From: Glandiceps talaboti
Lineage: Eukaryota; Hemichordata; Enteropneusta; Spengelidae
Assembly: GCF_964340395.1 (NCBI RefSeq)
Contig: NC_135551.1
Location: 24,623,003 to 24,687,002, forward strand
Length of the DNA stretch: 64,000 nt
Direction: 5' to 3'
Shown: positions 2,231 through 15,313 of the stretch, one piece after another
Position numbering within the stretch: position 1 is the stretch's first letter
How the letters are laid out: every line of letters starts with the position of its first letter
Notes under the pieces: generated by a model
The model's database searches: none
What the model saw: only the letters and a program-made list of their open reading frames with translations
Told to the model about the DNA's origin: nothing
Program-made: the position numbers and the translations under genes

Positions 2231-3685
2231 ATGATTATAGGCAAGTTCACGGGTATCGTATTATTACTTATTGTTGTCTCTATACTTCCGTTGGTGATGG
2301 CAGTACCGTCCTTCCTTGACGAACCTGAGAACACAACTGTGATAATTGAACAAGGATCAGGAGCGATGGAAATAATATCTCTGAGTTGTCGTATGAGGGG
2401 TTTCGACCCACCAGCAGTGATAGACAAAACATCATGGATAAAGAATGACGTCATTATAAGTGACACTTATCTCTTTCGTCAAGATATCGGTCATTTAAAG
2501 GACAATCGATATTCAATCGAAATTCGTTCAGAATACGGGCGGTATGACCTACAAATCGATGCCGTTACAGAGGTGACTGCTGCATTCGACAGTGGCAGAT
2601 ATCAATGTGCACTGCAATGGACAGCAAACGATACCAACATTATTGAATCTCCGATTATCTATGTAAAGGTGTTCATTGTTCCAAGAGAAACGTATCCCGT
2701 GTGTCAAACATCTCATATTACTAACAACAACAACAACAACAACAACAACAACAACAACAACAACAACAACAACAACACTGGAATAAATGTGATAGTAGAT
2801 ACAGAAGTGACACTGTCATGTCGATCAGACACAGGAATACCACAAAGTACAATACAATGGAAAAGGAATGATGGCCAAGAAGTACTGAGCACCTTCTATA
2901 ACATATCCTATTCGACAGAACTGATGATATATGACTTAACCTGGCATCCAGTCATTGCGGATGATGGTGTTACGTTCACATGTACACTGACACACCCAGG
3001 CTTAAGTGAAATCAGGTCATGTATCGTCGGGCCATTTTATATACAATATCTTCCTGTAGTCAGTACAACACCTGAACTAATTTATGTAAATAAGTCAACA
3101 CAGTCTATTGATATCACGTGTGTTTTCTCTGCTAATCCCCCAGTAGAAGAATACGACTGGTTTGTAGAAGGTAATGTTGTGTATAATTCCGATGAATTTG
3201 CTTTTACACTTGATGGAAATATTTTAACAGTGTCAGATTTCAATGGTGATAAAAACGGGCAATATCTAATTACATGTGTAACACGAAACAGTGTTGGATA
3301 TGCAAACGCCTCTAGTATATTGAACGTTGACATCAATGAACAAGGTTCGACAACGGCACTACCAGGTGATACGTGTAGTCAATGTGATCGTCCACAGTGT
3401 AGTGGGGGAGTATTGGTCGCTGTAGCATTGTCGTGTTTTCTTGCTGGTTCATTGTCGACTATTGCGATGTTTTACATAGCCTACAAACTTAGACGGCTAC
3501 CCTTTCCATCGACTACAAACAAGAAGGAAGACAATGTCACGCACGGCGTTAGTAATGAGGTGTGTGAAAATAATGATGAGTATGAAATGGTCAGAGACAA
3601 TACAGAAAGACAAGGAGATGGTGAACATTATCAAACATTAACTGGTCAGGTCAATGATATGTATACATCACTGAAGAAATCGTAA
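2231..3685 (+). CDS. Activating-type IgSF receptor with its own cytoplasmic ITAM (pair 1, ITAM member)
   Basis: Single open frame of 484 aa. Start chosen at 2231 because its N-terminus aligns with the start of the gene at 4670 (MIIGKFTG / MITGKFTG). Residues 1-24 are a signal peptide ending VMA. Three Ig-like domains follow: D1 about 25-145 (C53, W in TSWIKN, DSGRYQC with C126), D2 about 150-265 and D3 about 268-365. A Cys-rich stalk, a membrane helix about 394-418 with no charged residue, and a basic KLRR stop-transfer come next. The tail of about 65 residues ends YQTL-TGQVNDM-YTSL (Y467, Y478), a perfect ITAM of the kind that recruits Syk/ZAP-70 kinases in vertebrates. A further tyrosine, Y451 (DEYEMV), lies upstream. 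An 18-residue Asn run encoded by (AAC)18 sits at the D1-D2 junction. An activating role is inferred from the ITAM; the ligand is unknown. Confidence 0.9.
   Translation: MIIGKFTGIVLLLIVVSILPLVMAVPSFLDEPENTTVIIEQGSGAMEIISLSCRMRGFDPPAVIDKTSWIKNDVIISDTYLFRQDIGHLKDNRYSIEIRSEYGRYDLQIDAVTEVTAAFDSGRYQCALQWTANDTNIIESPIIYVKVFIVPRETYPVCQTSHITNNNNNNNNNNNNNNNNNNTGINVIVDTEVTLSCRSDTGIPQSTIQWKRNDGQEVLSTFYNISYSTELMIYDLTWHPVIADDGVTFTCTLTHPGLSEIRSCIVGPFYIQYLPVVSTTPELIYVNKSTQSIDITCVFSANPPVEEYDWFVEGNVVYNSDEFAFTLDGNILTVSDFNGDKNGQYLITCVTRNSVGYANASSILNVDINEQGSTTALPGDTCSQCDRPQCSGGVLVAVALSCFLAGSLSTIAMFYIAYKLRRLPFPSTTNKKEDNVTHGVSNEVCENNDEYEMVRDNTERQGDGEHYQTLTGQVNDMYTSLKKS
2723..2776 (+). repeat. Coding (AAC)18 microsatellite, poly-Asn between D1 and D2
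   Basis: Eighteen perfect AAC codons in frame. The paralogous gene at 4670 has no such run at the matching place, so this is a recent expansion. Perfect repeats of this length usually vary in number between individuals. Confidence 0.95.
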
Positions 3686-4214
3686 ATATATCATAACACA
3701 TTATCCATCGGGACGAAAGGTTCGGCAGATATATGACAAATCGACACATTCCTTAATCAATCAATCAATCAATCAATCAATCAATCAATCAATCAATCAA
3801 TCAATCAATCAATCAATCAATCAATCAATCAATCAATCAATCAATCAATCACCAATCAATGAACGAACGAACGAACCAGCCAGCCAGCCAGCCAGCCAGC
3901 TAGTCAGCCAATAAACAAGCCAACGAGCGAATGAACAAACAAACAAACAAACAAACGAGCCAACCAACCAACCAACCAACCAACCAAATGCACACATATT
4001 CAGATAGCTAAACCACACAAAAGGAAGCAATTTTAATAAAGGACAAATATTCCAGAAGACGATTTATTATAATTCAACATTTCGACTTATTGTTATAAAG
4101 AAGTAATTAGTTAAATTTGTAGGAAATCCATATGCAAATATTATATTATTGCAAAGTCAATACTTAATTTCCGACTTTGACATAATATATTGGTCACTAT
4201 TGTATAATTGCCCC
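3686..4214. repeat. Spacer with tetranucleotide repeats, (AATC)n and relatives
   Basis: After the stop codon, about 3753-3850 is a long (AATC)n array. Shorter GAAC, CAGC, CAAA and CCAA tetranucleotide tracts run on to about 3986. AATAAA hexamers at 3910-3915 and 4035-4040 are candidate polyadenylation signals for the upstream gene. There is no gene. Confidence 0.85.
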
Positions 4215-13234: not shown

Positions 13235-15313
13235 ATGCCAGCTCCACAGGTCTTCTCATTGGTTGCCAGATTCCTGATGGTAATTATCCTCCTTGGGTAT
13301 GCTGGGTATGGAGTACTGTCGATTGACCCTTCATTCGTGACTGAACCTTCTTCCAGCAAGATAGACTTCAACACTCAGAGTACAAATCAAGTGCATCACA
13401 CATTTTACTGTGTTATTCAACATATGCAGCTAGGACAGTCAGTGTCATGGATCAAGAATAACCAGACGATAAGTGAAGACTACACGGTACTCATTGATAA
13501 TCCACGTTACAGGATTTTTGGTACTGGTAACTCTGGAGAGTTTGATTTGTTGATAACACAAATTGACACCACTACAGCTGCTTTTGACACGGGACAATAT
13601 CAATGTGTTCTATCGAATGGAGACAGTATTATTCTTCGATCAAGACTTGTAAATTTTGATGTACTTGTTATCCCTCCTGAAGGGAATCCAAATTGTTCTC
13701 TCCATTATAACGGTACTAGTACTGCTAACGTTTTCAATCATAATGTAGAAGAGGGTGATCCACATGGTTATATACTGATATGTACGTTACCAGCTGTTGG
13801 GGTACCTTGGCCTACTATTGAATGGTATCAGAATACTACACAGTCGGCCAGCATCAGCACAGGAGAGCCAAACCTGACAGAAAACAACTTGATTTTACGA
13901 TACAGATGGACTCCTGACATCAAAGATAATGAAGCTTATTACATTTGCAGGGCGAGATATCCTACCTGGTCCTCCGGATATACTTGTAGCCTAGGTCCAT
14001 TCCATGTTTTGTATAAACCAAAAGTTGATATCTATCCTGAAGTTATTACGTTAACCGATAATTCCTCTTTCAATCTGACTTGCAATGCTATTGGAAATCC
14101 AAACACCCTCACCTACAGATGGAAATTTGATGGGGAATATATCAAGATGAACAGTATATTCATGACAACTGAAAATAATACTATACTTACCGTCAGTGGT
14201 ATGAATCATTTGTACAATGGTGATTACAAAGTCATGTGTGAAGTAAATAATACTATCGGCACAACTGAGGCAGTAGGTAATATAAAGATAAATATTCTAT
14301 ATAATAGTAAACCAACTTCTTCGACCATCGACAAATTAACAACATATCCATTTACAGATGAATACAACGATGATTTGAAAATCATAGCTGCAGCCGTTGG
14401 AGGTACAGCCGCTTTAATTATCATTACAGTTATTATAATTGTAATCGTCATATGTGTAGTAAGATCCCGACGACAGAAAAGAGAATCTGCAAGTAGTGTA
14501 CAAACTGACGAAACACAGCTATACAGCCACATTTCGTCTGACTCTTCAGGAGATCCTGTGTTGAGTCAAGATGCCTCGAATTCAGCTTACGCTAGTGTAA
14601 GTGACATAAGAGAGACAACCGTAAGTGTCAATCTGAAATTGAATTTGTCTGTGAGCAAGTTGAATAAAATGGGAAAGGGTGGTAACAAACAGGCTGATTC
14701 CAAAGGAGTGGAAGGAAAAAATGATGTAGTCAAACATATGGAAACCACGACGAGTGGAAACAAAGAAAAGGCAAAAACTCTACCAAATAATCGTACAACT
14801 GGAACATCTGGTCAAAAGGCAAATGAATGTGGTGGTGGTGATGATGACACTATTGATGTTATGAATTTGTATTCTGTGGTAAATAAACCAAAACGTCGAC
14901 CTGACCAAATATCTGATAGTAAGGGACATTGTGACATCATGAAAAAAGAAATAGAGAAACCAGCTAAACCTGTAATAAAGCCCAAACCGAGAGTTACTTC
15001 TGAAATTGTCTCAAGTGAAATCTCGTCGAGTAATAAAGACGAAAACGTTCAGTCAAATGAAACCACGGGACAAAGTATTCAGTCCACGTACGAAGATCGA
15101 GAAGTACCAAGCAAAGGTGGGGAGATGGAACCTCATGGTAAACTCGTAGACAATAGCGGCATTAGTAATGCTAGGCAACAGCCAGTAAAGAATGCCGAGA
15201 ATCTGACCTATGCTGACCTCGATCTTTCAGAAGAACAGCCACCACGAAGGTCAAAGGTGAGCATGGCTGAAAAGAAGTCTGGAGATATTGTATATGCAGA
15301 ACTGAACATGTAG
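13235..15313 (+). CDS. Inhibitory-type IgSF receptor with tandem ITIMs (pair 2, ITIM member)
   Basis: Single open frame of 692 aa. The start is the ATG aligned with the ATG of the gene at 10102; both begin MPAPQVFSLVARF. Signal peptide about 1-29, then three Ig-like domains with canonical Cys/Trp positions (FYC...SWIKN...YQC; YILIC...IEW...YYIC; LTC...YRW...VMC). The membrane helix is about 383-409, followed by RSRRQKR. The tail of about 280 residues is Ser/Thr/Lys-rich and has five tyrosine motifs: YSHI (Y430), SAYASV (Y452), YSVV (Y546), LTYADL (Y659) and IVYAEL (Y687). The last two are perfect ITIMs 28 residues apart, in the same layout as the tail of the gene at 4670. An inhibitory role through SH2 phosphatases is inferred from vertebrate ITIM receptors. 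AATAAA lies at 15349-15354. Confidence 0.9.
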   Translation: MPAPQVFSLVARFLMVIILLGYAGYGVLSIDPSFVTEPSSSKIDFNTQSTNQVHHTFYCVIQHMQLGQSVSWIKNNQTISEDYTVLIDNPRYRIFGTGNSGEFDLLITQIDTTTAAFDTGQYQCVLSNGDSIILRSRLVNFDVLVIPPEGNPNCSLHYNGTSTANVFNHNVEEGDPHGYILICTLPAVGVPWPTIEWYQNTTQSASISTGEPNLTENNLILRYRWTPDIKDNEAYYICRARYPTWSSGYTCSLGPFHVLYKPKVDIYPEVITLTDNSSFNLTCNAIGNPNTLTYRWKFDGEYIKMNSIFMTTENNTILTVSGMNHLYNGDYKVMCEVNNTIGTTEAVGNIKINILYNSKPTSSTIDKLTTYPFTDEYNDDLKIIAAAVGGTAALIIITVIIIVIVICVVRSRRQKRESASSVQTDETQLYSHISSDSSGDPVLSQDASNSAYASVSDIRETTVSVNLKLNLSVSKLNKMGKGGNKQADSKGVEGKNDVVKHMETTTSGNKEKAKTLPNNRTTGTSGQKANECGGGDDDTIDVMNLYSVVNKPKRRPDQISDSKGHCDIMKKEIEKPAKPVIKPKPRVTSEIVSSEISSSNKDENVQSNETTGQSIQSTYEDREVPSKGGEMEPHGKLVDNSGISNARQQPVKNAENLTYADLDLSEEQPPRRSKVSMAEKKSGDIVYAELNM

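Follow-up and report, generated by a model that had tools for sequence, protein, structure and literature searches.

The window analysed here, a stretch of 64,000 nucleotides from the hemichordate Glandiceps talaboti (assembly GCF_964340395.1, contig NC_135551.1, positions 24,623,003 to 24,687,002 of the forward strand), carries four plus-strand receptor genes of the immunoglobulin superfamily (IgSF), here named G1 to G4. In this order their cytoplasmic tails bear an immunoreceptor tyrosine-based activation motif (ITAM), an immunoreceptor tyrosine-based inhibition motif (ITIM), again an ITAM and again an ITIM. From the pattern of substitutions it can be established that the membrane-distal immunoglobulin (Ig) domain, D1, must have been homogenised recently between an ITAM gene and an ITIM gene, and this twice, by gene conversion or another kind of recombination, and that the 3' halves of the genes must be old. 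Hallmarks of paired receptors found in this locus are the similar distal domain (D1 being assumed to bind the ligand), the opposite tail motifs and the conversion or recombination of the distal domain. We consider it rather probable that the locus represents an activating/inhibitory paired-receptor system convergent with KIR, LILR and CEACAM.

Homogenisation of the distal domain

All four reading frames run unbroken from start to stop and contain no coding intron. The first-pass annotation, a reading of the letters without database searches, had described four same-strand IgSF receptors with alternating ITAM and ITIM tails, and this is confirmed by the intact frames, by Ig domains in each of the four proteins and by alternating motifs at the place it gave. 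Its estimate that D1 is about 80% or more identical within pairs agrees with the measured 77.6% for G1/G2 (pair 1) and 82.8% for G3/G4 (pair 2). The near-identical ectodomains it reported were recovered in part, namely in D1 and, for pair 2, in D2 (71%); D3 is only 23% identical in pair 1 and 46% in pair 2, and D2 of pair 1 only 39%.

In pair 1 the synonymous divergence per site (dS) of D1 is 0.18, and synonymous sites are at or near saturation in both D2 and D3; in pair 2 dS amounts to 0.10 in D1 and 0.41 in D2, with D3 saturated. Identical residues written with differing codons number 12 of 112 in leader and D1 versus 42 of 71 thereafter in pair 1 (Fisher 3e-12), and 6 of 121 in leader and D1, 17 of 75 in D2 and 24 of 48 thereafter in pair 2 (3.7e-4 and 3e-3). 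The best breakpoints were located at amino acids 142 and 263, about 10 residues or less from Ig-domain boundaries that were set by eye; none of 2000 permutations reached either of them, and no intron is found there.

Identity in sliding 60-base windows is 80-95% over about 1980-2690 of G1 (65% in the last window) and 41-68% outside, and in pair 2 it is 85-98% over a core of about 10060-10660 of G3 and then drops to 57-88% across D2. The similar tract has edges on both sides in each pair, and both tracts link an ITAM gene with an ITIM gene and end before the transmembrane segment and tail. As non-coding flank diverges fast regardless, the 5' edges by themselves are weak proof, and the argument depends on the 3' edges, which are coding. 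The homogenisation of D1 is regarded as recent because D1 shows few synonymous changes in contrast with the saturated D3, and because the tracts are bounded on both sides. Either partner may have been the donor, and the copying may have occurred by gene conversion or by crossing-over with a third copy.

Two other histories were considered and rejected. A tandem duplication with simple subsequent divergence predicts even synonymous divergence along the gene, in conflict with a dS of 0.10-0.18 in D1 and saturation in D3, and the same contrast rules out purifying selection on D1 alone.

Right after D1 and adjoining the end of the homogenised tract, G1 has a run of 18 asparagines (AAC repeat, 2723-2776) that is absent from G2-G4.

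Cytoplasmic tails

The ITAM of G3 is similar to that of DAP12 (TYROBP), an adaptor without Ig domains. It matched the TYROBP peptide chain of PDB entry 7q5w over 20 residues with E 0.0066 (0.065 with the whole G3 protein), the best of three matches for the G3 tail at E<=10; identity to the DAP12 ITAM is 11/20 in G3 and 8/20 in G1. For the G4 tail, the PDB gave no match at E<=10. Motifs of the inhibitory type are SSYATV, LTYAEL and TVYAEV in G2, the last one resembling an immunoreceptor tyrosine-based switch motif (ITSM), and SAYASV, LTYADL and IVYAEL in G4. A further tail, named G0 and clipped at the window edge, ends with LMYAQLDL...IVYADVRQ. The tails of G2, G4 and G0 have the common end L[TM]YA[EDQ]LDLS ... 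VYA[ED][VL], in which the tyrosines are 32, 28 and 26 residues apart, respectively, and the distance from the last tyrosine to the C-terminus is 5 residues in each.

In 100,000 composition shuffles per tail an ITAM was present in 0.06% (G1) and 0.65% (G3) of the shuffled tails, and the ITIM/ITSM count was reached in 0.5% (G2), 0.3% (G4) and 5.5% (G0; 0.9% for the pattern Y[AS]x[LVI]). The G2 tail contains a tandem duplication with 82% DNA identity between the copies; of the 50 codons compared, 30 are identical, 5 differ synonymously and 15 by replacement. Motifs and adjoining residues are more alike than the remaining tail in all four comparisons (one-sided Fisher 0.0007, 5e-6, 0.006 and 0.02), with windows chosen after the alignments were known and three ITIM comparisons that are not independent of each other. 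This supports, without proving, that the tyrosine motifs are under constraint.

Kinship of tails was expressed as the number of 1000 shuffles that reach the alignment score. Tails of like signal type gave 0 (G1-G3), 0 (G0-G2) and 22 (G2-G4), and tails within a pair were not significantly similar (426 for G1-G2, 203 for G3-G4). By sequence, the tails group by signal type, clearly for G1-G3 and G0-G2 and weakly for G4; that tails of one signal type share an origin is supported less firmly. D1 and D2 group G1 with G2 and G3 with G4. No grouping by tail type was seen in D3, where only the closest pair, G3-G4, is clear.

Ectodomains and searches for relatives

Pfam recognised Ig domains in all four proteins, with three passing stretches in G1 (I-set), G3 and G4 (Ig_3) and, in G2, two Ig_3 stretches besides a weak V-set match over D1 (E 0.0096). 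D1 alone gave only sub-threshold Ig matches in each protein (best E 7e-5 to 0.009). Besides a hydrophobic N-terminal stretch, every receptor has one other transmembrane-like segment, and G3 has an additional weaker hydrophobic peak where D3 ends. The transmembrane cores that were inspected contain no charged residue, and one cysteine lies within the transmembrane segment of G4. Two or three cysteines are found in the stalks of both ITAM receptors and none in either ITIM receptor; they would allow disulphide-linked dimers of the ITAM receptors. D2 of all four receptors contains four conserved cysteines (158, 197, 251 and 264 in G1), two beyond the usual Ig pair, which suggests an extra disulphide.

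Structure models of G2 and G3 were mediocre (mean predicted local distance difference test, pLDDT, 62), with D1 of G3 and D2 of G2 mostly below 50. The chains listed by Foldseek for the G2 model are multi-Ig proteins of a generic kind, with TM-scores, normalised by query length, of 0.23-0.30. Among PDB profile matches generic Ig chains dominate as well, and KIR, LILR and SIRP are not named among the best 60 of 113 and the best 60 of 148 matches, which leaves room for them lower down. The match to CEACAM1 was confined to part of D2 and D3 (E 7e-9 and 1e-9) and ranked below contactin, Robo and nectin.

The protein searches with G4 and with the alignment of the four proteins scored only those candidates that share most words with the query. 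No relative was detected with G4 among 7992 scored candidates or with residues 27-420 of G3 among 5237. With the alignment of the four proteins 2 of 7997 matched, both being longer than 1000 amino acids and carrying many Ig-family labels. A single scan of bacterial/archaeal genome contigs and one of viral contigs (72 and 307 pattern stretches, respectively) detected no relative, an animal genome not being expected there.

Proposed mechanism and rival explanations

Doubly phosphorylated ITAMs act by recruiting kinases of the Syk type, and tandem ITIMs by recruiting phosphatases of the SHP type. In the proposed mechanism both partners of a pair would present D1 to the same or an overlapping ligand. 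G1 and G3 would give an activating signal via their built-in ITAM, whose tyrosines, 11 residues apart, would fit the tandem SH2 domains of a Syk-type kinase. G2, G4 and G0 would give a restraining signal via the C-terminal tandem ITIM/ITSM-type tyrosines, the spacing of 26-32 residues fitting an SHP-type phosphatase. The 5' module, which comprises leader and D1 and, in pair 1, some 250 bp of 5' flank besides, would be copied from partner to partner by recombination, and the activating receptor would keep matching the ligand of the inhibitory receptor while D1 goes on changing. With D1 in common, the activating partner would answer the ligand that is reported by the inhibitory one. The opposition of the tails is one of motifs, to which activating and inhibitory signalling is provisionally assigned; shared ligand, co-expression, phosphorylation, recruitment of Syk and SHP and a use in immunity or self/non-self recognition are predictions of the mechanism.

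Several observations weigh against a paired-receptor system. The partners of pair 1 are poorly conserved in D2 and D3 (39% and 23%). D1 gave no sign of positive selection, omega (the ratio of replacement to synonymous rates) being 0.63 (0.32-1.33) in G1/G2 and 0.87 (0.39-2.86) in G3/G4. Replacement changes in Xenopus CEACAM are reported to gather in the presumed binding face; this is not reproduced in D1 of G1/G2, where changes show no loop bias (changed are 13 of 63 residues in strands and 15 of 62 in loops, p 0.67). The Xenopus authors further state that conversion requires opposite gene orientation, and G1-G4, unlike those CEACAM partners, have the same orientation. Residue 53 of G2 (4826-4828) is phenylalanine in place of the first canonical D1 cysteine of the other three receptors, because of which D1 of G2 would be without the usual disulphide. 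No close relative of the receptors was found in the searches described above.

The separation of signal types is also less clean than the paired-receptor interpretation would prefer. The opposite tail motifs of the first-pass annotation hold as far as ITAMs in G1/G3 and ITIM/ITSM-type motifs in G2/G4 are concerned, and are blurred in G3, whose tail includes two ITIM-pattern matches, ISYEDV and, inside the ITAM, SPYQSL (1.9% of shuffles). G0-G4 tails are not significantly similar (73 of 1000 shuffles), and two comparisons between ITIM and ITAM tails score as well or better (8 for G0-G3, 32 for G2-G3), to which the polar composition of these tails probably contributes. Grouping of stalk and transmembrane regions by signal type is not supported (0 for G2-G3, 4 for G2-G4, 63 for G1-G3).

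The paired-receptor reading of the first-pass annotation is retained in its architecture, which is supported by recent D1 recombination between genes with old and different 3' halves, and given up where it relied on ectodomains alike over their whole length. Its complete gene set is not supported, as the array extends beyond the window on the 5' side.

G1-G4 could instead be adhesion-type Ig receptors that form an ordinary tandem family, in which 5' recombination is neutral turnover of the array and the tyrosines are YxxL/YxxV sorting signals or generic SH2-docking sites. This appears unlikely, since each tract connects a gene of the ITAM type with one of the ITIM type and ends ahead of the transmembrane segment and tail, since neither the spacing of the ITAM nor its match to DAP12 would be expected of sorting signals, and since motif residues are more alike than the remaining tail. 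Alternatively, receptors with opposing signals might have private ligands, the homogenisation serving the shared regulation of leader and promoter and the D1 domains of partners having diverged since then, e.g., for allorecognition. Consistent with this, the pair 1 tract takes in 5' flank that is as similar as D1 (91%, 221/242 aligned bases), and partners differ in 17-22% of their D1 residues, omega being 0.6-0.9. The flank of pair 2, however, is far less alike than D1 (67% over 153 bases; upstream of a point about 43 bp before the ATG, windows give 43% and 68%), and we regard private ligands as improbable. An assembly artefact in which haplotypes or paralogues were misjoined is highly implausible: microsatellites, the in-frame stop of G0 and the lost cysteine of G2 could reflect sequence error, but tract identity is 83-87% and not near 100%, the pattern recurs in two separate pairs, and haplotype duplicates should be alike over the whole gene.

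With the paired-receptor interpretation a wider proposal is connected, about which our doubts slightly outweigh our confidence: a non-vertebrate animal may have independently evolved a full paired system of the CEACAM/KIR kind, with the ligand-binding domain kept matched by repeated gene conversion, and such a system would serve a molecular arms race or self/non-self recognition and would have arisen from adhesion-type Ig receptors that lack introns and have a DAP12-like ITAM of their own. Vertebrate paired receptors are explained as an answer to pathogens that exploit inhibitory receptors. Were the same recombination signature to be found between ITAM and ITIM genes of non-vertebrates, it would suggest that the logic of this arms race applies generally and does not depend on lymphocyte-based immunity; the locus would then be a compact place to test it directly.

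Features of the window

Beyond the first-pass annotation the analysis revealed the sharp drop of similarity after D1, the G0 tail and a D1 remnant (Table 1). The frame of G0 is open with the exception of one in-frame TGA (330-332), which reflects a pseudogene, an allele or a sequencing error. It has 2 stops in 192 codons (frame 3, one of them terminal), and the other forward frames have 12 and 18 and the reverse frames 4-9. Its Smith-Waterman score against the G2 tail was matched by none of 1000 shuffles; tblastn with the G1-G4 proteins at E 1e-3 missed it and, across the 64 kb, matched only G1-G4 and the D1 remnant. The remnant is similar to G1 (tblastn 42% over 95 amino acids, E 1e-13; DNA 72% over 173 columns), its reading frame closes downstream, and it had no Pfam match at E<=1. 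The receptor array continues past the 5' end of the window.

Elsewhere three exons resemble SLC22-type first exons and had no Pfam match; the one at 37103-37705 weakly resembles mammalian organic cation transporters (OCTs) with solved structures. Long microsatellites lie between genes, TCAA at about 3750-3850 and CT at 9483-9616.

Table 1. Positions of the receptor genes, their motifs and tracts, and other features in the window
Feature	Position	Strand	Remarks
G0, C-terminal cytoplasmic tail of a putative further ITIM-type receptor, clipped at window edge	3..578	+	open frame and similarity to G2 tail
Decayed leader and partial D1 of G1/G2 type	about 1457..1744	+	tblastn and DNA match to G1
Pair 1 homogenised tract (5' flank, leader, D1), G1 copy	1985..2708	+	partner G2 4421..5147 (+); 87% over 731 columns
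G1	2231..3685	+	484 aa; leader, three Ig domains, Cys-containing stalk, transmembrane segment, short ITAM tail
G1 ITAM YQTLTGQVNDMYTSL	3629..3673	+	YxxL-x7-YxxL
G2	4670..6544	+	624 aa; leader, three Ig domains, transmembrane segment, long ITIM/ITSM-type tail
Tandem duplication within G2 tail	6063..6371 (copies 6063-6215, 6219-6371)	+	YATV/YASV motif in each copy
G2 ITIM LTYAEL	6422..6439	+	
G2 C-terminal TVYAEV	6518..6535	+	ITSM-like
Pair 2 similar tract, G3 copy	9949..10979	+	partner G4 13080..14112 (+); 83% over 1043 columns
G3	10102..11586	+	494 aa; leader, three Ig domains, Cys-containing stalk, transmembrane segment, short ITAM tail
G3 ITAM YQSLEGRKTDIYTSL	11533..11577	+	YxxL-x7-YxxL; DAP12-like
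G4	13235..15313	+	692 aa; leader, three Ig domains, transmembrane segment, long ITIM-type tail
G4 SAYASV motif	14582..14599	+	
G4 ITIM LTYADL	15203..15220	+	
G4 C-terminal IVYAEL	15287..15304	+	
Similar-looking SLC22-type first exon	18461-19000	+	without structure match
Apparent SLC22-type first exon	37103-37705	-	structure match OCT2, E 6.5e-9
Similar-looking SLC22-type first exon	59036-59545	-	without structure match

Comparison with known systems

In paired CEACAMs conversion is recognised by the small number of synonymous changes that separate ITIM and ITAM partners in their ligand-binding domain, and in one dog pair the similarity extends into leader and upstream DNA (PMC2832619, PMC5112662). 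The present locus is like the vertebrate CEACAM1/CEACAM3 type in that genes with ITIM/ITSM and genes with ITAM(-like) motifs are clustered together and have a homogenised distal domain. It differs in gene structure, as CEACAM genes have introns, with conversion restricted to the N exon in Xenopus, whereas G1-G4 are without coding introns. Siglec-11 and Siglec-16 are likewise inhibitory and activating partners whose extracellular regions are kept alike by gene conversion (PMC5701461), but the activating Siglec acts via the DAP12 adaptor (PMC2832619) and G1/G3 have a built-in ITAM. With DAP12 itself they share the YxxL-x7-YxxL arrangement and differ by placing it within the receptor.

Among invertebrates, the fester co-receptors (FcoR) of Botryllus are clustered IgSF proteins with ITIM or hemITAM (PMC12065747). 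They combine a V-type Ig, a sushi and two C2 domains and hemITAM, and fester pairs with FcoR, whereas G1-G4 have three Ig domains and a full ITAM; no sushi domain was matched by Pfam at E<=1 in any of the four proteins, which thus do not show the FcoR architecture. Hydractinia Alr, candidate allorecognition receptors with ITAM and ITIM motifs as cited in PMC12065747, can be likened to G1-G4 by the description of motifs only. The oyster receptor CgIgIT2 has a classic ITAM and recognises bacteria (reviewed in PMC11999971); it contains five Ig domains in contrast with three here, and the accessible part of that review mentions no homogenised ITIM partner. Among the papers listed in searches of open-access literature, most subscription papers being absent from it, none was seen to describe homogenised ITAM/ITIM partners for an invertebrate, and passages of PMC9505182 and PMC9334734 offered nothing on this point. 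Ig receptors with ITAM or ITIM were already known from invertebrates, and we judge the homogenised ITAM/ITIM partners to be the new element of this locus.

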